From assembly GCA_018653485.1 (NCBI GenBank), contig JABHZE010000002.1, positions 120,294 through 184,293 on the forward strand: 64,000 nucleotides of DNA, in the 5' to 3' direction. The translations under genes were made by a program, and so were the position numbers. The stretch comes from an archaeon. GTDB taxonomy: Archaea; Nanobdellota; Nanobdellia; Pacearchaeales; GW2011-AR1. The notes below the pieces were generated by a model that searched no databases, was not told where the DNA came from, and saw only the letters and a program-made list of their open reading frames with translations. This document shows positions 2,818 to 48,165 of the stretch, in pieces. The stretch's first letter is position 1; each line of letters starts with the position of its first letter.

Positions 2818-4482
2818 ATGAAATCAAAAATACTATCAATGTTTTTATTGACAACAATTTTAGCACTTTCTTTAGTTAGTGCAGCTGATTTTACACTTTC
2901 TAAAACTTCAATTGAATTTACTGAAACAAGTAATTCTCAAAGTTTTACAATGACTCCTGTTGATGGACTTGTAGCATTTAATGATTATACTTTAACACTT
3001 ACACAAATTTTAGATGATGATGATAACCCTATAACAATTACAACAACACCTGATTCAATAACTGCTCTTGATGATACAACAGCTATTAATGTTGCAACAA
3101 CTGTTGATTTTGATGATTTAACAGTAGGAAAGAGTTATACTGGTGATTTAATAATTACAAATGATGCAGACGCAAACGATACTGAAACTATTACAGTAAA
3201 CTTCTTAAAAACATTTTGTGAAGAAGGAGAACAAAGCACAAATGATCATGAATTAGAAATTACAGAAGTTGATATTGAAAATGATGATGGAGATGATGAT
3301 GAATGGTCACCATTAGATGAAATAACAATTGAAGTAGAAGTTACAAATAATGGAGACGAAAAAGTAAAGGATGTTATTGTTGAATTAGGAATATTTAATT
3401 CAGATGGTGAAAACATTGTGAGAGACTTAGAAAACTTAGATGATGAACAAATTGACTTAGGAAATATAGATGATGATGAGGATGATACTACAACTTTTGA
3501 ATTTAAAGTTCCAGCTGATTTTGAAGATGAAAATTATAAAATTGTAATTAAAGCTTATAGTGATAAAGAAGATGAAGAAAATGTTTGTACATCTTCAGCT
3601 GCAGATTTTGAAGACGAATACTTTGAATTAATTACAGGTGAAAGAGAAGATGATGAAGACAAACACGTTATTGTAGATGATATTGTATTTTCTCCAGAAA
3701 CAGCTGAACCAGGAGACATAATTCAAGTTACAGCAGAAGTTTTCAATATTGGAGATGAAGAATATGAAGATCAAGTTATGGTATCTGTTTATAATCAAGA
3801 ACTTGGAATTAATGAAGAAATTATAGTTACTGGAGATTTAGATGCTGGAGATTCAGAAGTTATTGACTTTGAATTTGAAGTTCCATCAACAGCTAATCCA
3901 AAACTTTACACACTTGAATTTAAAACATATTATGATTATGATGAAGATGATGATGAATATGATTTAGAATCAGATGAAAGAGTTACAAAAGTTCTTAAAG
4001 TTGAAGGAACACCATTACCTCCAACACCAGAACTTAGAATCACAGCAGGATTAGATTCAGACTCTGTAAAAGCTGGAGAAGAAGTTACAATTACTGCAAC
4101 TCTTGAAAACACAGGAGATGATGAAACAACTTACTCAATAACATTATCTGGAAATAGTGCATGGTCAAGTGCATCAATAAGCCCAAGAATATTAACTCTT
4201 ACTGCAGGAGAATCAAAAGATGTTGAAATAATCCTTACATTAGATGATGATGTTGAAGCAGAAACAAAAGATTTCACACTAAAAGCAACTTCAAATGCTG
4301 AAACAATCGAAAAAGATATGTCTCTTACAATTGAAGAAGATGATTCAAGAGATGCTAATCAAGTAGTTGACCATCTTAAAACAAACTGGTTTATCTATGT
4401 AATAGTATTAGTTAACTTAATCTTAATCATAGCAATAATCTCTGTAATTAAGAGAATGATTGCACCAAGACCAGTTCTTTAA
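2818..4482 (+). CDS. Secreted, highly acidic protein with CARDB/NEW3-like repeats and C-terminal TM anchor
   Basis: Signal peptide MKSKILSMFLLTTILALSLVSA; repeated segments such as EITVEVEVTNNGDEKVKDVIVE and VTITATLENTGDDETTYSITLSG; C-terminal TM plus basic tail. Confidence 0.75.
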   Translation: MKSKILSMFLLTTILALSLVSAADFTLSKTSIEFTETSNSQSFTMTPVDGLVAFNDYTLTLTQILDDDDNPITITTTPDSITALDDTTAINVATTVDFDDLTVGKSYTGDLIITNDADANDTETITVNFLKTFCEEGEQSTNDHELEITEVDIENDDGDDDEWSPLDEITIEVEVTNNGDEKVKDVIVELGIFNSDGENIVRDLENLDDEQIDLGNIDDDEDDTTTFEFKVPADFEDENYKIVIKAYSDKEDEENVCTSSAADFEDEYFELITGEREDDEDKHVIVDDIVFSPETAEPGDIIQVTAEVFNIGDEEYEDQVMVSVYNQELGINEEIIVTGDLDAGDSEVIDFEFEVPSTANPKLYTLEFKTYYDYDEDDDEYDLESDERVTKVLKVEGTPLPPTPELRITAGLDSDSVKAGEEVTITATLENTGDDETTYSITLSGNSAWSSASISPRILTLTAGESKDVEIILTLDDDVEAETKDFTLKATSNAETIEKDMSLTIEEDDSRDANQVVDHLKTNWFIYVIVLVNLILIIAIISVIKRMIAPRPVL

Positions 4483-4553
4483 TTTTTCTTTAAGTTTTTA
4501 TTAATAATTAGTTTAAGGAGTATTTTAATAAATATTTATTAACTTAAATTATC

Positions 4554-4943
4554 ATGGCACTTACACATGTTGTTGGAATTGTTAGATATTATGATGAAGT
4601 CTTAGTTGGAAAGAAAATCTCTACTTCTCCAAAATTTTTAGCAGGTAAATGGCATATTCCTGGAGAAACTATAGAACCTAATGAAACAGATAAACAAGCT
4701 TTAGAAAGAGGATTACGTGAAGAAGCAGGAATAGAGGTTATTGTTGGAAGATATATTGATAGTCACTTTAATGAGGATGGAGGAGAAGTTAAGTGGTATG
4801 AATGTTTTTATGTTTCTGGGAAAGTAATTCCTAGAAGCGATTTAGAAGACGCGAGATTTATTAATAAAAAAGAAGTAATAAATATTTGTAGTCCAAGGGC
4901 CTCAGAAAAATGGCCTAAAAAGATTTTAGATTATTTTAAATAA
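4554..4943 (+). CDS. NUDIX hydrolase
   Basis: Nudix box region GETIEPNETDKQALERGLREEAGIEV. Confidence 0.85.
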   Translation: MALTHVVGIVRYYDEVLVGKKISTSPKFLAGKWHIPGETIEPNETDKQALERGLREEAGIEVIVGRYIDSHFNEDGGEVKWYECFYVSGKVIPRSDLEDARFINKKEVINICSPRASEKWPKKILDYFK

Positions 4944-4949
4944 AATTTT

Positions 4950-5594
4950 CTACCCAAACACCCTAAACCTTTTAACAATCTTCCCACCAAAACCATATCT
5001 CTTCTCCAACCAAATCATACTCATTCCTATTAAATATCCAATTAATCCCCCGCTTAAAACATCAGACATATAATGAACCCCAAAATACATTCTTGATAAT
5101 CCTACTGAAACTGCAAAAATAAGCCAGATATATTTAAATTTTCTAAATTTTTTGTTTAACAAAGGAACTAATGCAAAAACTAACATTGTTTGAAATGAAG
5201 GGAATGAATAATTCCAGGTATTAAAGTTGCCTAACCCTTCGTAAAATAGCATATTTAAAACACTAACTAACCCTTCTTGGAAAGGACGTAGCCTTTTAAC
5301 AACCACTTTTAATGTAACTGCAACAATAACTGAAAGAAATATTGTTAAACCTGCAGGAATAACATATCTTCTAGTTTTTTTATTCCAAGAAAACAAACAA
5401 ATTATAAAAAAGAAAATAATAAACACATTACTTAAAAATTCAATTATTAAAAAATAAACATCAAGATACTGATTTCTCAAACTTTCAATAAATTTAATTA
5501 TCTGAACATCAAATATAAAACTTAAAACTATCAATACAAAGGTTAATCCAACAACTACACAAAACACAGATCTATTTTTAACACTCTTTTTCAT
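4950..5594 (-). CDS. PAP2-family phosphatase (membrane)
   Basis: VVVKRLRPF ... NYSFPSFQTM ... GLSRMYFGVHYMSDVLSG match PAP2 motifs KxxxxxxRP, PSxH-like and SRxxxxxHxxxD. Confidence 0.85.
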   Translation of the reverse strand: MKKSVKNRSVFCVVVGLTFVLIVLSFIFDVQIIKFIESLRNQYLDVYFLIIEFLSNVFIIFFFIICLFSWNKKTRRYVIPAGLTIFLSVIVAVTLKVVVKRLRPFQEGLVSVLNMLFYEGLGNFNTWNYSFPSFQTMLVFALVPLLNKKFRKFKYIWLIFAVSVGLSRMYFGVHYMSDVLSGGLIGYLIGMSMIWLEKRYGFGGKIVKRFRVFG

Positions 5595-5642
5595 ATGTTA
5601 CAAGGGGATTAAATATTTAAATAGATTTCCTTTATTTATTTT

Positions 5643-6203
5643 ATGAATAAGAAAATCAAAAAATCAAAAAAAACAGATGAAAAAAATAAAATCTATATGA
5701 TTTTAACAAGATATATTTTATTACTCTTACTAAGTTTCTCTCTCTCTTTAATCTATAAGATTCTCACACCTTTAACAATTAACACAGCATTTATTTTATT
5801 AAAACAATTTATCCCCACAATATTAATCTCAGGAAATTTATTAATAATCCCTCTTGATAAGGTAATAGAGATAAATCAAGCATGTGTTGCAGGTTCTGCA
5901 TACCTTTTACTAATATTAATCAATCTTACTGTGCCTATGGCCTTAAGAAAGAGGATTTATACACTATTATTCTCATTAATAACTCTTTTTATAATCAATA
6001 TATTAAGAATCTTAATTTTTACAATATTATATAATAATAATTTCAAATATTTTACATTAACTCACAATATCTTTTGGGTCTTTCTAAGTACAATATTTGT
6101 AGTCTTAATATGGCTCTTAACAGTAAAAGTATTCGCTATAAAGGATATACCAGTCTATACTGATATTAAATACTTAAGGGGAGTAAGGAGATCTAGAGGA
6201 TGA
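5643..6203 (+). CDS. Archaeosortase/exosortase-family transpeptidase
   Basis: Multi-TM protein with NQACVAGSAYLLLI (Cys), FIINILRILIF (Arg) and LTHNIFWVF (His), the Cys-Arg-His arrangement of archaeo/exosortases. Confidence 0.8.
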   Translation: MNKKIKKSKKTDEKNKIYMILTRYILLLLLSFSLSLIYKILTPLTINTAFILLKQFIPTILISGNLLIIPLDKVIEINQACVAGSAYLLLILINLTVPMALRKRIYTLLFSLITLFIINILRILIFTILYNNNFKYFTLTHNIFWVFLSTIFVVLIWLLTVKVFAIKDIPVYTDIKYLRGVRRSRG

Positions 6204-6868
6204 TAGAGACAATATTTAATCTACTGCATCAATTAATAGAATTCTTAGTGACAATTATCAGTTCATTAGGTTATTTAGGGATATTTATTGGAATGACTAT
6301 TGAAAGCTCATTTCTTCCATTTCCAAGTGAATTAATTCTTCCTCCTGCAGGAGTTTTAATCTCTAGAGGAGAAATGTCTTGGATATTAGTCTTAATTTCA
6401 GCAGTTTTAGGAAGCATACTCGGAGCATTAATTAATTATTTTCTAGCTCTCACTTTAGGAAGGAGGGCAATCAACCACCTATTAAGCAAATATGAAAAAA
6501 TATTATTCTTTTTAGATGAGGATAAATTAGCTAAATCAGATTATTTCTTTAAAAAACACGGAGAAATAACCACATTTATCGGAAGATTAGTTCCAGGGAT
6601 AAGGCAATTAATATCTATCCCAGCAGGATTTGCTAAAATGAATCTTAAAAGATTTATATTCTTTACAACACTTGGAGCAGGAATTTGGTCATTTATCTTA
6701 ATTTATCTAGGATATCTTTATGGGGACAATATAGATGTAATAAAACAAAACGCCAACACTATTTTATTATTCCTATTGCCAGTAATCCTCTTATCAATTT
6801 TAATTTATTTATTGATGCATAAAAAGAAAAAGGATAAACAATCAATCAAAGAAAAACAATCAAACTAA
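6200..6868 (+). CDS. DedA-family membrane protein
   Basis: GIFIGMTIESSFLPFPSELILPPAGVL ... FIGRLVPGIRQLISIPAGFAKM signatures; ATGA overlap with upstream archaeosortase. Confidence 0.9.
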   Translation: MIETIFNLLHQLIEFLVTIISSLGYLGIFIGMTIESSFLPFPSELILPPAGVLISRGEMSWILVLISAVLGSILGALINYFLALTLGRRAINHLLSKYEKILFFLDEDKLAKSDYFFKKHGEITTFIGRLVPGIRQLISIPAGFAKMNLKRFIFFTTLGAGIWSFILIYLGYLYGDNIDVIKQNANTILLFLLPVILLSILIYLLMHKKKKDKQSIKEKQSN

Positions 6869-6890
6869 TAAATTCTCAAATCAGTATGAA

Positions 6891-7574
6891 CTATTTCTTT
6901 TTTCTAATTAAATAAATAACAACAAGAGCAATTATAACCAAAACCCCTATAAAAATATAAATCATATTGTTTGAACTTTTAGTACAATAACTTATTTCAG
7001 AATATTGATACGGAATTTTTTCTTCTAATCCTTCTACATCACATTTATAGCCTTCATTTTTCCATTCCTCACACTGAATCTTTTTACATTTAGAGAACAT
7101 TCCTTCATTATCTTTACAAACATTATCATTAACACATTCACTATACGAACAACAATAAACTTCTAATAAACACCCATCTTCAAAACCACATACAAAAGAA
7201 CCCTCTTTATATTCCATATAAGGATTCCATTCAGAATCAAAAGTATTTGCAAATGCATTTTTATTCCCACAAACATCAATAAAAATATCATCAATTAAAA
7301 CATTTTCCTCAAAACTAATTTCAAAAGTTTCATCTGCATAAACAGAACAACCCCTATTTTCTCCAATCACTGAATATAATTCCCCTTCAGGATTAGTCTT
7401 TTCAATAACACTATATGCAAATATACTTGGAGTTAGAAATAATAAAGAAGTTACAATAAATAAACTAATTAGATTTCCCCTCATTTTATTAATAACCAAT
7501 TGAACATTTTTAAATCTTTCTAAGACCTCTAATAAATTCTTAAATTCCCTAATAACCTGGAACCATTTCAACAA
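6891..7574 (-). CDS. Secreted/membrane-anchored Cys-rich hypothetical protein
   Basis: Internal Met followed by signal peptide (MRGNLISLFIVTSLLFLTPSIFA), C-terminal TM plus RKKK; the true start is probably the internal Met. Confidence 0.6.
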   Translation of the reverse strand: MLKWFQVIREFKNLLEVLERFKNVQLVINKMRGNLISLFIVTSLLFLTPSIFAYSVIEKTNPEGELYSVIGENRGCSVYADETFEISFEENVLIDDIFIDVCGNKNAFANTFDSEWNPYMEYKEGSFVCGFEDGCLLEVYCCSYSECVNDNVCKDNEGMFSKCKKIQCEEWKNEGYKCDVEGLEEKIPYQYSEISYCTKSSNNMIYIFIGVLVIIALVVIYLIRKKK

Positions 7575-8442
7575 ACAAATTCATATAATCTCCAACAACT
7601 TCTAACATAAATTTCTCAGAAACTTCAACAATCTCACAATTAGCATAAGTTATCTCAAAACAATTTTCAGAAGTTTGTTCTATCTTTGTCTCATTACCAC
7701 TATTAAACATAATCACAGTATTATCAGGATGACTTTGACAATTAGCAAACAAAAGTCGATTCTCTTCAGCCCCTTCTTCAGTAGATTGAGCACCCCTAAC
7801 ATTCATAAGTCCAAATCTTGTAAGAAGTTGAGTAATCCCTCCAACACCATTAACACTATGAGGGCACACCTCCATGTCAGGGTTAATACTTAGAAAAATA
7901 TCCTTACTTCTTTGAAAAACAATACTATCCTTCTTTAATTCCACTGGAATTGAATCTATCTCTCGAGGGTCACTTATTAATTCTAAATAAAAAGGGTCTA
8001 GAGAATTCCCTTGCTGATCTATTCTAGGAATTTCAGTGAAATAAACCCAAACACCTCCTCGCTTAGCTTTAAAAAAATCAAGATGATTATATTCAAATTT
8101 ATTTATAATATTTTTATTAATATAAGGAACTAAAACAATTATTAGAATCATACTAGTCATTAAAATAATCGCCCACATAAGTTGTTTATTTTGTTTTTTT
8201 GCAATTTCTTTTTTTGTAATTTTGGAATCTTCTGAACTAAGTTCAGAATCCACTATTTTACTTTTATCAATATCAGCATTTTCAACAACACTATCTTTAA
8301 CAGAACTATCCTCTACCTCACTTTCAATTATCTTACTATCCTCAATTTTACTATCATCAACATCACTATTAATTATTTTACTATCCTCTACATTACTTTC
8401 TTCAATAACAGATTTATTCTCAATTTTATCTTCTTTTTCCAT
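7549..8442 (-). CDS. Membrane protein with N-terminal pentapeptide-repeat-like segment
   Basis: Five-residue periodicity SNVED SKIIN SDVDD SKIED SKIIE SEVED SSVKD SVVEN ADIDK SKIVD SEL, then a TM and an extracytoplasmic domain. Confidence 0.65.
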   Translation of the reverse strand: MEKEDKIENKSVIEESNVEDSKIINSDVDDSKIEDSKIIESEVEDSSVKDSVVENADIDKSKIVDSELSSEDSKITKKEIAKKQNKQLMWAIILMTSMILIIVLVPYINKNIINKFEYNHLDFFKAKRGGVWVYFTEIPRIDQQGNSLDPFYLELISDPREIDSIPVELKKDSIVFQRSKDIFLSINPDMEVCPHSVNGVGGITQLLTRFGLMNVRGAQSTEEGAEENRLLFANCQSHPDNTVIMFNSGNETKIEQTSENCFEITYANCEIVEVSEKFMLEVVGDYMNLFVEMVPGY

Positions 8443-34777: not shown

Positions 34778-36091
34778 ATGAAAAGAGGACATTTATCACC
34801 AAAAGTAAATATCAATTTATTTCTTGTACTATTCCTATTTACAATCCTATTCATACCATTCATCTCTGCAATAGATATAACACTATCAAAAGAAAACTAT
34901 CAACCAAGAGAAACACTTCAAGCAGAAATAATAGGCAACTTTGTTTCTCTAACAGCAGATAACATCTTACTTTATGAACAAGGTGTTCCTCGTTCAACAC
35001 CTGCAATTTCAGATTTAACTTATCAAGATAATACTTATTATTTTTATGCAATTCTTCCAAATAAACAAGCTAATTTTTCCCTTAAAATAGAAAATGCAGA
35101 ATACTATGATCAAGAGAACATAATCTCAGATACTATAACAAAAGATTTTGAAATTAAAACAACAAATCAATCTTCACTTCAAATTAATCCAGGGTTTATT
35201 GTTTCAGAAGAATCTTTTTCAATAAATGTAAAATCACTTAATGAAAATCAAGATGTAAAATTAGATTTTGAAAATATAACTCAAACCCATACAATAATTC
35301 AAGAAGATGAAAAAACAATAGAATTAACTTCAATTAAAAAACAATCTTCAACACTAAAAATAGATGATTATAATATTCCCATATTTATAACCTCAGAACC
35401 AATCACGCCTCCAATACCTCAAAGCAGAGATTTAAAATTCACACCTACAGAATTAACTGCAAAAGTAATTTCAAATCAAGATTATTTTTTTAGAGTTATT
35501 TTAGAAAATATCGGAAACAAAAATCTTACAAACCTACAATTCTCTTCAGACATTGCAACAATTATAGAACCAAGTGTAATTCCTTTAATTAATTCAAAAA
35601 CAAAAGAATTTATTAATTTAACAGTAAAAGTTCCAGAAACACAAGATAATTTCACAGGAGAAATAACATTAACTTATCTTGATAACACTCAACAACTTAA
35701 ACTTCCAATATTATTTGAAATCATAGAAACACAAGAGGAAATTAATCTAACCCCCACAGAAACACCTGTAGGATTAAATTGCGATGAATTTGGAATAATT
35801 TGTGATTCAGATGAAATATGTGATGGTTCAATAACAAAAAGTTTACAAGGAAATTGTTGTATTGGAAATTGCATTGTAGAACCAGAACCCTCAAATTATG
35901 GAATGATTTTCTTAGGAATTCTAATCCTCTTAGTTGTAGCATTTTTTGGATTCATCATATACAGAAGATTCAAAAAAAAGAAAATAAAAACACCAGAGCA
36001 ATTATTAAAAGAAAAATCAGAAAAGTACAGCAAAAGAATTCAACCACAACAACCTCCTGCAGAAGTTCGAGGTAAATTAGATAGGATTTAA
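34778..36091 (+). CDS. Membrane-anchored extracellular protein with Cys motif
   Basis: Signal peptide, beta-rich domains, DEFGIICDSDEICDGSITKSLQGNCCIGNC, TM, basic tail. Confidence 0.65.
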   Translation: MKRGHLSPKVNINLFLVLFLFTILFIPFISAIDITLSKENYQPRETLQAEIIGNFVSLTADNILLYEQGVPRSTPAISDLTYQDNTYYFYAILPNKQANFSLKIENAEYYDQENIISDTITKDFEIKTTNQSSLQINPGFIVSEESFSINVKSLNENQDVKLDFENITQTHTIIQEDEKTIELTSIKKQSSTLKIDDYNIPIFITSEPITPPIPQSRDLKFTPTELTAKVISNQDYFFRVILENIGNKNLTNLQFSSDIATIIEPSVIPLINSKTKEFINLTVKVPETQDNFTGEITLTYLDNTQQLKLPILFEIIETQEEINLTPTETPVGLNCDEFGIICDSDEICDGSITKSLQGNCCIGNCIVEPEPSNYGMIFLGILILLVVAFFGFIIYRRFKKKKIKTPEQLLKEKSEKYSKRIQPQQPPAEVRGKLDRI

Positions 36092-38711: not shown

Positions 38712-38897
38712 TTACAAATCTCTAGCAAGTAATGTTTTTCTTTGATTTGCCTTTGCCCTAGCAATCCCTTTTCTTAAAATATCTTCAACCTTTTTTTCCA
38801 ATTCTTCTTCAACTTCATTAGCAACATTACCAATAACCCCTTCTTCATCAATCTTCTTTACACTCTCTCTTATTTTGCTTTTTATTATTAAACTCAT
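38712..38897 (-). CDS. Histone-fold protein (short)
   Basis: NVANEVEEELEKKVEDILRKGIARAKANQRKTLLARDL resembles archaeal histone alpha2-L2. Confidence 0.65.
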   Translation of the reverse strand: MSLIIKSKIRESVKKIDEEGVIGNVANEVEEELEKKVEDILRKGIARAKANQRKTLLARDL

Positions 38898-40432
38898 TTT
38901 TTCTTCTTCTTATTTTTTGAATTTTCAGCACTCTTAGAATTTTCTGAACTTGCATTATCCCTCATAAAAGGAAATAATAAAACATCCCTAATACTCTCTT
39001 GCCCTGTTAATAACATAACCATTCTATCAATTCCCAACCCCAACCCACCAGTAGGAGGCATTCCAATATCAATAGCATTTAAGAAATCTTCATCTAATGG
39101 ATTAGCTTCTTCATCTCCACCTTTTAACATTTTTTGTTGCCCTTCTAATAATTCTCTTTGTAAAATAGGATCATTTAATTCACTATATGCATTTCCTAAT
39201 TCAGCACCCATGCAAAAAGGCTCAAATCTTTCAATTAGTTTACACATTTGATCATTTCTATGAGTTTTACATAAGGGAGTAGTTTCTAAAGGATGGTCTA
39301 AAATAAATGTAGGTTGTTCAATTTTTTCTTCACAAAAATGCTCAAATAATCCCTGAACAGCCCATCCCCAAGTTTTATCTTTAATATCAATTTTATTTTT
39401 ATCAACAAACTCAAAAATTTCAGAATCACTCATTTTTTTAATATCAATTTTTGCATATTTTTTAATTGCCTCTAACATTGTCATTCTTTTCCAAGGAGCT
39501 TTAAAATCAATCATCTTGCCCCTAAATTTAACCTTAGTAGTTCCAAGAACCTTTTTACAAGCATTCTCATAAATCTCTTCAAACAAATCCATCATATCAT
39601 TATAATCACAATAAGCACAATAGATTTCCATCATTGTAAATTCAGGATTATGCCATCTATCAATTCCCTCATTTCTAAAATTTCTTGAAATAGTAAATAC
39701 TCTATCATATCCTCCAACAATTAATCTCTTTAAATATAATTCAGGAGAAATAGCTAAATATAAATCCATATCAAGTGCATTTAAATGTGTCTTAAATGGT
39801 TTAGCACTTGCCCCACCATAAAGTGTTTGTAAAAATGGAGTTTCAACTTCAACAATATCTTTCTTTTTTAATAATTCTCTAATAGAATCAAGAATCTTTG
39901 TTCTTACCTCAAAAACATTTTTCACATCAGGATTCATAATTAAATCCAAGTATCTTTTTCTATATCTTTCTTCTTTATCCTGAATACCATGCCATTTTTC
40001 AGGAAGAGGCAATAAACTCTTACTCAACATTTCAGCTTTTTTAACTAACACAGAAACTTCCCCAGTTCTTGTTTTCATAATAATTCCTACACTTCCAATT
40101 ATATCTCCAATATCTGAATATTTCTTAATATTTTCAAAACTCTCTGCATTTGTTTCAGCTTTTTGAAAAATCAATTGCAAATCCCCTTTAGAATCTCTAA
40201 TAGTTAAAAAAATAAGTTTTCCAAGATTCCTCTTAGTCATAATTCTTCCAGCAACACTAACCTTGCCCTTACTCCTCTCATCATTTTTTAATTTCTTATA
40301 CTTTTCTTTAATTTCCAAAGAAAAATTCTTTCTATCAAATTTATGTGGATAAGGATTAACTCCTTTTGCAATTAATTCCTTTAATTTTCTTTTTCTCTCA
40401 TTAATTATTTGTTCTTCTCTTCCCATTAACAT
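38894..40432 (-). CDS. lysS: Lysyl-tRNA synthetase, class II
   Basis: RFRNEGIDRWHNPEFTMMEIY, GGLGLGIDRMVMLLTGQESIRDVLLFPFMR class II motifs. Confidence 0.95.
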   Translation of the reverse strand: MLMGREEQIINERKRKLKELIAKGVNPYPHKFDRKNFSLEIKEKYKKLKNDERSKGKVSVAGRIMTKRNLGKLIFLTIRDSKGDLQLIFQKAETNAESFENIKKYSDIGDIIGSVGIIMKTRTGEVSVLVKKAEMLSKSLLPLPEKWHGIQDKEERYRKRYLDLIMNPDVKNVFEVRTKILDSIRELLKKKDIVEVETPFLQTLYGGASAKPFKTHLNALDMDLYLAISPELYLKRLIVGGYDRVFTISRNFRNEGIDRWHNPEFTMMEIYCAYCDYNDMMDLFEEIYENACKKVLGTTKVKFRGKMIDFKAPWKRMTMLEAIKKYAKIDIKKMSDSEIFEFVDKNKIDIKDKTWGWAVQGLFEHFCEEKIEQPTFILDHPLETTPLCKTHRNDQMCKLIERFEPFCMGAELGNAYSELNDPILQRELLEGQQKMLKGGDEEANPLDEDFLNAIDIGMPPTGGLGLGIDRMVMLLTGQESIRDVLLFPFMRDNASSENSKSAENSKNKKKKK

Positions 40433-40462: not shown

Positions 40463-40735
40463 TTACAACCTCATAACCTTAAAACCCTTAAAATCTTGAT
40501 GCCTAATTTCTCTTATTTCCATATTTTTAATATCTGCATGCTTAGGTCCTGTTTTACAAACACCTAACATTTCCTTAACATTATCATCTTTTCCTTCAAG
40601 AAGAATCTCAACTCTTCCATCTTCAAGATTTCTAACAAAACCCCTAACATTAAGTTTATCAGCATTATCTTTGATGAATTTTCTAAAAAACACACCTTGC
40701 ACACTTCCTGAAACATATATTCTAAGAGTTTTCAT
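40463..40735 (-). CDS. acyP: Acylphosphatase
   Basis: RIYVSGSVQGVFFRKFIKDNADKLNVRGFVRNLEDGRVEI. Confidence 0.93.
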   Translation of the reverse strand: MKTLRIYVSGSVQGVFFRKFIKDNADKLNVRGFVRNLEDGRVEILLEGKDDNVKEMLGVCKTGPKHADIKNMEIREIRHQDFKGFKVMRL

Positions 40736-40804: not shown

Positions 40805-41074
40805 CTAATTAGAATAATCTCTTTGTCTATTATTTCTACCTAATCTATAAGCACCCAATGCACCTACTCCCATAGTTAAAAGCAAAGCAGTTGAAGGTTC
40901 TGGTGTAGTGTTATTATGCATATCTCTATATTTTTGTTGCTGAGTAGTTCCAATAGGTTTAAGATTTCTAGGATTATCTTTTGAATTCCCATTAATTAAA
41001 CCACATCCAGCACTACAACTAAGTAAACCCGCTGAAATAATTACAGGTGCAATTAATTTTTTTAATGTTTTCAT
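40805..41074 (-). CDS. Small secreted lipoprotein-like protein with PEP-CTERM-like tail
   Basis: Signal plus lipobox-like LLSC; C-terminus TTPEPSTALLLTMGVGALGAYRLGRNNRQRDYSN. Confidence 0.75.
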   Translation of the reverse strand: MKTLKKLIAPVIISAGLLSCSAGCGLINGNSKDNPRNLKPIGTTQQQKYRDMHNNTTPEPSTALLLTMGVGALGAYRLGRNNRQRDYSN

Positions 41075-41135
41075 TTTAATATTATTTGTTAGTTTTTAGT
41101 TAATATAAATCTTTCTAAAGGCTATTTAAACCTTT

Positions 41136-41714
41136 CTATAATCTCCTCAAATCCAACTCATTATGAATAATAATCATTGTTTGTGAGGCAAAATAAGTAG
41201 GCCTTCCAACACTAATTTTATCTTTATACCTTTTAACTTCTTTCTTAGGTAATCCCTCATGATCTCCAAGAACAAAAACACACTTGCTCAACTTAGAACT
41301 ATCAAGTTCCCTAATACTTTCCCCTTTTCCATCCAAAATACAAATATCTTTTCCATTATCTTCTAATTCATTCAATAAAGCTCTAAAGCTCTTTTTCTCA
41401 ATAAAACATCCTGGAAAAACTTCGTTTTTCTTTCCCTCTTTACATTTATACAACATTCTTTTAATCAACCCAGCAACATTTTTTTTACTTATTTGCGTCT
41501 TCTCAATTTTAGAACTAACAATTTCTAAATGCATTGGAGGATTTGGAGCACCATTAAAAATCAGATGCAAATGAACATCATCCCTCATTTTATTACTAAG
41601 AAAAAGAGATTGTATTATCACATTACAAACAATATCCATTCTTCCAGCTTTCATTAAATCTGTAAAATTCCCAGATGTTCTTGCTTTTTGCGAAAAATAA
41701 ATAAATTCTCTCAT
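41136..41714 (-). CDS. trmY: tRNA (pseudouridine54-N1)-methyltransferase TrmY
   Basis: FIYFSQKARTSGNFTDLMKAGRMDIVCNVIIQSLFLSNKMRDDVHLHLIFNGAPNPP. Confidence 0.9.
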   Translation of the reverse strand: MREFIYFSQKARTSGNFTDLMKAGRMDIVCNVIIQSLFLSNKMRDDVHLHLIFNGAPNPPMHLEIVSSKIEKTQISKKNVAGLIKRMLYKCKEGKKNEVFPGCFIEKKSFRALLNELEDNGKDICILDGKGESIRELDSSKLSKCVFVLGDHEGLPKKEVKRYKDKISVGRPTYFASQTMIIIHNELDLRRL

Positions 41715-46905: not shown

Positions 46906-48165
46906 TTATTTTTTCTTCCAAAATTCTAAAGCATCTCTTAGTTCAATATGTTTCTTAGAATATTCTTTTAATGAAATACCCCTCATAGTAGCATCTACAG
47001 CTTGCCTCATTGCAATTGCACCCCTAAAAGTTCCATTAGGATGTCCATGAATTCCTCCTCCTGCCTGAATCACAATATCTTTACCTAAATTTTTAATTAA
47101 AAAAGGTGCATGTCCTGGATGCAATCCTCCGGAACTTACACTTAAAACAGATTTAATTTTCCCCCAATCTTGAGCCAATCTTCTCTTAGTTGCCTTCACA
47201 TTTTTCTTTTCAATTTCTTCACTTATCTCAGAAACTTCTTCTAAACTTCCTTCTAATTTTCCAACCGCAGTTCCAATATGTAATTGATCCACCCCAATCA
47301 AACGAGCAATATCTGCTAAAACCATCATACTCATTCCTTGTTCTTTATCTCTTGTAAATGCAGCATGCATGGCTCTATGGGCATGAATAGCCATTTTAAA
47401 ATTAGCCTCTCTTAATGTTTGTAATGCAGAAAATCCACAAGTAACAATATCAACCATAATATATTTTCCACCTTGATCTTCAACTAATTCAGCTCTCTTA
47501 AGCATCTTCTTTGTTTCAGCAGTTACATTAATCAAATAAGCTTTTTCTTCACTAGTATGAGACTTAGCCTTATCAGCAACCTCTAAACAACTAGTCAATC
47601 TTTTTTCAAATTTATTAAAAGTCTGTGAACTTAAATTTTCATCATCTTTAACAACATCACAACCACCTTTCCAAGATTCAAAAGCAAGCTCAGTATGATC
47701 TTTAGTTTTTAATCCTAATTTAGGTTTAACAATTGTCCCAACTAACGGTCTATTTTTCACTTTCATAATTTTCCTTACTCCCTCAATACCATATTTAGGC
47801 CCTTTAAATGAATCTAAAATATCTTTAGGAATTTTTATGTCTTCTAATCGAATACTTTTAACAGCTTTCATTCCAAAAATATTTCCTGCAATACTACTCA
47901 AAATATTTGGAGCATTTCCTCTTTCAAATAAATCTTGAGGATACGCAATCTTAATCATATTTTTATTAATAGAAAAAACTTTTGCAGCTAATTTATTAAC
48001 ATATTTTTTTTCATGAACATCAGTCCAAGTTCCCACTGAACTTTCCAAAGCAACAGTAGCTGCAGCCTCTCGCATAGTCATTTTATTAGGCTTAACCCTA
48101 AATAAACAAACCAAATCCTTTCTAGAAGGTTTATATTTTAAATTTACAAATTCTGCGGGTTTCAT
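46906..48165 (-). CDS. rbcL: RuBisCO large subunit, form III-like
   Basis: GTIVKPKLGL, GGCDVVKDDENL, HAHRAMHAAFTRD, VGKLEG, SSGGLHPGH, QAGGGIHGHPNG catalytic motifs present. Confidence 0.93.
   Translation of the reverse strand: MKPAEFVNLKYKPSRKDLVCLFRVKPNKMTMREAAATVALESSVGTWTDVHEKKYVNKLAAKVFSINKNMIKIAYPQDLFERGNAPNILSSIAGNIFGMKAVKSIRLEDIKIPKDILDSFKGPKYGIEGVRKIMKVKNRPLVGTIVKPKLGLKTKDHTELAFESWKGGCDVVKDDENLSSQTFNKFEKRLTSCLEVADKAKSHTSEEKAYLINVTAETKKMLKRAELVEDQGGKYIMVDIVTCGFSALQTLREANFKMAIHAHRAMHAAFTRDKEQGMSMMVLADIARLIGVDQLHIGTAVGKLEGSLEEVSEISEEIEKKNVKATKRRLAQDWGKIKSVLSVSSGGLHPGHAPFLIKNLGKDIVIQAGGGIHGHPNGTFRGAIAMRQAVDATMRGISLKEYSKKHIELRDALEFWKKK

Follow-up and report, generated by a model that had tools for sequence, protein, structure and literature searches.

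The founding survey of PEP-CTERM proteins found them only in bacteria with an outer membrane, reported no archaeal case, and gave a median of eight tails per genome (Haft 2006, PMC1569441). Archaea were paired in later papers with PGF-CTERM and ArtA and with PEF-CTERM and ArtC (PMC3237569, PMC11980579, PMC5244752). In the collection that we searched there was no literature on PEP-CTERM in DPANN archaea or Woesearchaeota, on an exosortase in Pacearchaeota, or on the pacearchaeosortase, and other reports could exist.

We have analysed a 64-kb stretch of DNA (the window) from an archaeon of the order Pacearchaeales (assembly GCA_018653485.1, genome G000 in our set) that encodes an 89-aa secreted protein ending in a PEP-CTERM tail. 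The likeness to the bacterial PEP-CTERM/exosortase (EpsH) system lies in the PEP motif, the short hydrophobic helix and the basic end, in the occurrence on secreted proteins with little other homology, and in a tail common to several unrelated proteins per genome group (PMC1569441). Unlike the bacterial system, this genome has two tails rather than a median of eight, and no bacterial exosortase was found in it. The host differs too, as to our knowledge an outer membrane is not expected in this archaeal lineage. Thus, the tail is PEP-CTERM as a domain, but it falls outside the bacterial definition as a system because no bacterial exosortase was found.

Two archaeal systems are also close. Archaeosortase A/PGF-CTERM of Haloferax volcanii shares the enzyme superfamily (TIGR04178) and the three-part tail layout, but its tail model (PF18204) finds nothing here, nor in 179 of the 180 genomes sampled from the order, and the two enzymes fall into different families. 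The pacearchaeosortase and PACE-CTERM (NF033505/NF033506) lie side by side in this genome, as in most of the order. Unlike the PACE-CTERM protein, whose tail has no PEP motif, the 89-aa protein is encoded 34 kb away and carries a tail of another family.

The PEP-CTERM gene and its setting

The full protein is MKTLKKLIAPVIISAGLLSCSAGCGLINGNSKDNPRNLKPIGTTQQQKYRDMHNNTTPEPSTALLLTMGVGALGAYRLGRNNRQRDYSN and its tail is TTPEPSTALLLTMGVGALGAYRLGRNNRQRDYSN (Table 1). The first-pass annotation had proposed a PEP-CTERM tail here and suggested two models for checking it, both of which match over their cut-offs: PF07589 covers residues 56-77 with 25.3 bits (cut-off 20.7) and TIGR02595 covers residues 57-75 with 18.1 bits (cut-off 16). 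In a six-frame search of the entire 930-kb genome with PF07589, the locus scored 27.1 bits (E=6.5e-6) and one other match, G000:C2:100786-100857, was over the cut-off. The same model had no match over the cut-off in any of 14 control genomes. The PEP motif, helix and basic residues occupy the extreme C-terminus (residues 56-89), and the tail aligns with 17 other tails from the same order. PACE-CTERM (NF033506) does not match the protein, and PGF-CTERM (PF18204) matches neither the protein nor anything else in its genome. The tail truly belongs to the PEP-CTERM domain family.

Table 1. Positions of the features discussed, numbered within the window
Feature	Position	Strand	Basis
Gene, 89-aa secreted PEP-CTERM protein	40805-41074	(-)	ORF with ATG start; PF07589 and TIGR02595 over cut-off; host-like codon usage
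N-terminal signal peptide region, residues 1-25, MKTLKKLIAPVIISAGLLSCSAGCG; lipobox-like LLSC of doubtful meaning	41000-41074	(-)	Read from sequence
PEP-CTERM domain, residues 56-77, then basic stretch up to C-terminus	40844-40909	(-)	PF07589 match
TATA-like box TTTATATT, ~35 nt upstream of ATG	41102-41109	(-)	Upstream sequence, AT-rich DNA
TrmY-like RNA methyltransferase, left flank of variable slot	41136-41714	(-)	PF04013; adjoins acylphosphatase in congeners
Acylphosphatase, right flank of variable slot	40463-40735	(-)	PF00708; synteny
Lysyl-tRNA synthetase-like (LysS), third gene of conserved cluster	38894-40432	(-)	Assigned by inspection; synteny
PACE-CTERM putative S-layer protein, tail without PEP motif	2818-4482	(+)	NF033506, 391 bits
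PAP2-superfamily phosphatase	4950-5594	(-)	PF01569
Pacearchaeosortase	5643-6203	(+)	NF033505, 161.4 bits (cut-off 80); single copy; Cys81, Arg122, His141
VTT/DedA protein resembling undecaprenyl-phosphate transporter UptA	6200-6868	(+)	PF09335; NF052604 below cut-off

The ORF is a real archaeal gene, predicted to encode a small exported surface peptide. Its codon log-likelihood is 0.345 per codon; the two adjacent genes have 0.348 and 0.263, and the remaining five frames range from -0.44 to +0.12. The hydrophobic N-terminus (MKTLKKLIAPVIISAGLL) is a signal peptide as judged by hydropathy only, and the TATA-like box would suit a leaderless archaeal transcript. The protein had also been called lipoprotein-like, a description that fared less well. 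Its LLSC fits the lipobox pattern, but of the ~91 signal-peptide-like N-termini in about half of the genome, just one other, from a doubtful protein, has a Prosite-style lipobox. The lipoprotein reading is weak, and a signal peptide of the ordinary kind is no less probable.

Across the congeners the genes for the TrmY-like methyltransferase and the acylphosphatase are kept together, and LysS joins them wherever the locus extends far enough. The gap between the first two measures 36-65 bp in three congeners and 135-189 bp in three more; in the rest it is ~540-1280 bp and holds different genes. In this genome the slot is 400 bp and is occupied by the PEP gene, whose GC content (31.5%) is close to that of the window (30.2%). 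The genome is estimated at 85.6% completeness and 0.64% contamination. A chimeric contig is therefore very unlikely, because the gene sits in a variable slot of a genus-conserved cluster, its GC matches and contamination is low; the conserved gene order speaks against the chimerism that the first-pass annotation had listed as a refuting outcome. No convincing homologue of the 89-aa protein was found in 17 congeners, which fits a recent acquisition, and none in the genome_contigs set. A type III RuBisCO large subunit is also encoded in the window (46906-48165; TIGR03326, 577 bits).

PEP-CTERM tails in the genome, the order and the phylum

The search for further PEP-tailed proteins yielded one more clear case in this genome, and related genomes proved to have tails too. 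The second protein, on contig C2, has 313 aa counted from its ATG; it carries a signal peptide, and its C-terminal end is VPEPTTGWLLALGLIGSGVFLARRYC. The neighbouring gene on this 108-kb contig, whose GC is the same, encodes a secreted repeat protein of 2068 aa. In the 455 kb scanned (about half of the genome) there was no further short-helix tail with a motif; the other C-terminally anchored proteins in that scan have long valine/isoleucine-rich helices. A 437-aa secreted protein (window 34778-36091; C-terminal EPEPSNYGMIFLGILILLVVAFFGFIIYRRFKKKK) scored 17.9 bits with TIGR02595 in the six-frame search, over the cut-off, and has a borderline PEP-like tail. The third TIGR02595 match in the genome (window 35882-35977, inside these coordinates) was absent from the whole-protein scan and was set aside, probably being no more than an ordinary membrane helix that follows EPEP.

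Of 180 genomes of the order, 11 have a PF07589 match over the cut-off, as do 4 of 327 sampled from the phylum. A model made from the lineage's own tails matched in 13 of the 180, adding G077, of the same genus, and G028. Overall, PEP tails occur patchily in about 7% of the order (13-14 of 180 sampled genomes), whereas PGF-CTERM (PF18204), the usual archaeal tail, occurs in one of the 180. A weak PF07589 match in G064 was rejected as spurious, and high-GC PEP matches in G043 and G098 were put aside as possible contamination. The PEP contigs of the remaining genomes are consistent in GC with their own genomes.

The two contigs put aside show GC anomalies. On G043:C6 (L086) there is a stretch of ~50% GC against 37%, and the end of G098:C3 (L092) has 50% against 37%; GC steps from ~40% to ~50% within or at the end of these archaeal-binned contigs. 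The PEP-CTERM genes lie in the GC-rich part, and the two loci are possible chimeras or islands. At another locus, L085, a LAGLIDADG-like ORF (6962-7918) and a GyrB-like gene (5071-6984) overlap at the GyrB start, where the ORF repeats the first residues of GyrB (KAEQIKVLEGLEAVR); it looks like an intervening element in gyrB.

PEP tails are common to otherwise unrelated proteins of the order. Some families are common within it, with 32% identity over 228 aa between G006 and G167 and 33% over 227 aa between G043 and G103, and G100 has tandem paralogues with PEP tails. G082 encodes a PEP protein that bears an FGE-sulfatase domain, and its gene and that of the pacearchaeosortase share a contig at a distance of 5.4 kb. 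Across several genera, most tails, also those of paralogues formed within one lineage, retain the PEP motif and the three-part layout; in some tails the motif has drifted (TEP, PDAP). The suggestion that this lineage may use a PEP-like signal is thus borne out to the extent that it carries a sporadic PEP-CTERM repertoire.

The pacearchaeosortase

The archaeosortase-family gene to which the first-pass annotation pointed is a pacearchaeosortase (NF033505, 161 bits). A count of archaeosortase paralogues, which it had also proposed, gave this gene as the sole exosortase/archaeosortase-type enzyme found in the genome (85.6% complete). A bacterial exosortase of the EpsH/XrtA type was not found there; PF09721 reached 17.4 bits, below its cut-off of 25.7. 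Of the 180 genomes of the order, 159 have a member of the NF033505 family. Cys81, Arg122 and His141, which we take to be the catalytic residues of the exosortase/archaeosortase superfamily, are invariant in 58 of 58 sequences. No solved structure for this sortase was found.

The named partner of the pacearchaeosortase is the adjacent PACE-CTERM protein and not a PEP protein. A homologue of this S-layer-like protein lies near the sortase in 47 of 59 loci. Thus, of the proposed link between the archaeosortase and the PEP tail, the gene stands, but what had been missed is that it belongs to a named family with its own partner next door, so that the presence of the sortase alone does not show that it handles PEP tails. 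The cluster at 2818-6868 comprises the PACE-CTERM S-layer-like protein, the PAP2 phosphatase, the sortase and the UptA-like VTT protein. The last two suggest that a polyprenyl-phosphate carrier may be handled near the sortase; their conservation was counted only partly, the flanks of the loci being short.

All PEP-positive genomes have a sortase, and most genomes with a pacearchaeosortase have no PEP protein. Of 12 PEP-positive genomes checked with TIGR04178, one (G172) has a clear second sortase, and in two the sortase was detected only with NF033505. Larger second sortases occur in a few relatives (G172, G089 and G107), and no PEP tails were detected in G089 and G107. Co-occurrence of sortase and PEP tails is significant when the data are pooled (p=5e-4), but neither the order alone (p=0.24) nor the genomes outside it (p=0.13) give significance. 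On the sortase tree, PEP-positive genomes are dispersed: PEP presence changes 11 times, and shuffling gives a mean of 12. A low NF033505 score is associated with PEP presence (Mann-Whitney p=0.004), but we do not count this as evidence because the lineages do not count as independent samples and no clustering is seen on the sortase tree.

Discussion

In sum, we found a PEP-CTERM protein in a variable slot of an archaeal genome, a second one on another contig, and a single archaeal sortase. The PEP genes probably reached these archaea by lateral transfer, with bacteria as their ultimate source. Horizontal acquisition, raised in the first-pass annotation as one option, is likely on three grounds: the patchiness on the sortase tree, the lack of a homologue in 17 congeners, and the variable insertion slot.

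We propose that the PEP protein was gained laterally and is sorted by the resident pacearchaeosortase, and we regard this as the best explanation as a whole, with an equal chance of being right or wrong. Should the tails be processed, the candidate enzyme is the pacearchaeosortase, as it is the sole clear sortase in 11 of the 12 PEP-positive genomes checked. That it cleaves the PEP tail is the most economical reading, resting on its being the only candidate enzyme, and the odds on it are about even. According to this model, the tail, through its short helix and basic end, would keep the protein in the membrane after export. The pacearchaeosortase may then recognize the PEP segment, cut there, and transfer the new C-terminus to a lipid-type acceptor. 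The PEP protein would stay on the cell surface alongside the PACE-CTERM S-layer-like protein, and PEP genes may have been retained because the resident sortase could use them.

The points that we count for sorting by the pacearchaeosortase are the models over cut-off, the second PEP protein, the conserved synteny with a slot empty in congeners, the 13-14 PEP genomes against one PGF-CTERM genome in 180, the single sortase in most genomes, the invariant Cys/Arg/His, the proximity in G082, and tails kept across unrelated proteins and paralogues. Against it we count the dedicated substrate with a different tail, an enzyme mostly without a PEP protein, the weak co-occurrence, the tree scatter, the drifted motifs, and the fact that no bacterial donor was identified.

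The main alternative is that the tail is a genuine, laterally acquired PEP-CTERM tail that is not processed here, and acts as a plain C-terminal membrane anchor that may be heading for loss. The patchy distribution, two tails against the bacterial median of eight, the drift in some paralogues and the dedicated substrate of the sortase all agree with this. However, the motif and layout are kept in most tails of several genera, also in within-lineage paralogues, and we consider an unprocessed anchor a serious but doubtful explanation. It is unlikely that a second exosortase, encoded in the missing part of the genome or of a type missed by the models, processes the tail. The genome is incomplete and the larger enzymes of G172, G089 and G107 give precedents, but 11 of 12 PEP-positive genomes are without a clear second sortase, and incompleteness of only ~15% per genome does not explain so many absences; moreover, two of the three larger enzymes occur where no PEP tails were detected.

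That a short hydrophobic C-terminus resembles the PEP model by chance is very improbable and already largely refuted. The PF07589 model is only 24 positions long and its weak match in G064 was spurious, but two independent models are over cut-off here, the genome-wide E-value is low, the genome has a second match and the controls have none. In addition, the PGF-CTERM model, of similar length and layout, matches in a single genome of the order, and the protein has a signal peptide at its opposite end. Bacterial contamination or a chimeric contig at the PEP gene, of which the suspect PEP contigs in relatives (G043:C6 and the end of G098:C3) are a reminder, is scarcely credible for a gene that fills a gap between genes neighbouring in congeners and has the GC and codon usage of its host.

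Returning to sorting by the pacearchaeosortase, its broader form is that a dedicated S-layer archaeosortase of a single-membrane archaeon also processes bacterial-type PEP-CTERM tails, so that bacterial surface proteins gained laterally would come with a working surface anchor. We put this forward tentatively, as a claim that may well hold but is slightly more apt to fail. The presence of PEP-CTERM in archaeal chromosomes in which only an archaeal sortase was detected uncouples the tail from both the outer membrane and the bacterial exosortase. Archaeal PEP tails offer a direct route to asking about the specificity of archaeosortases and about how small archaea take over bacterial surface proteins.
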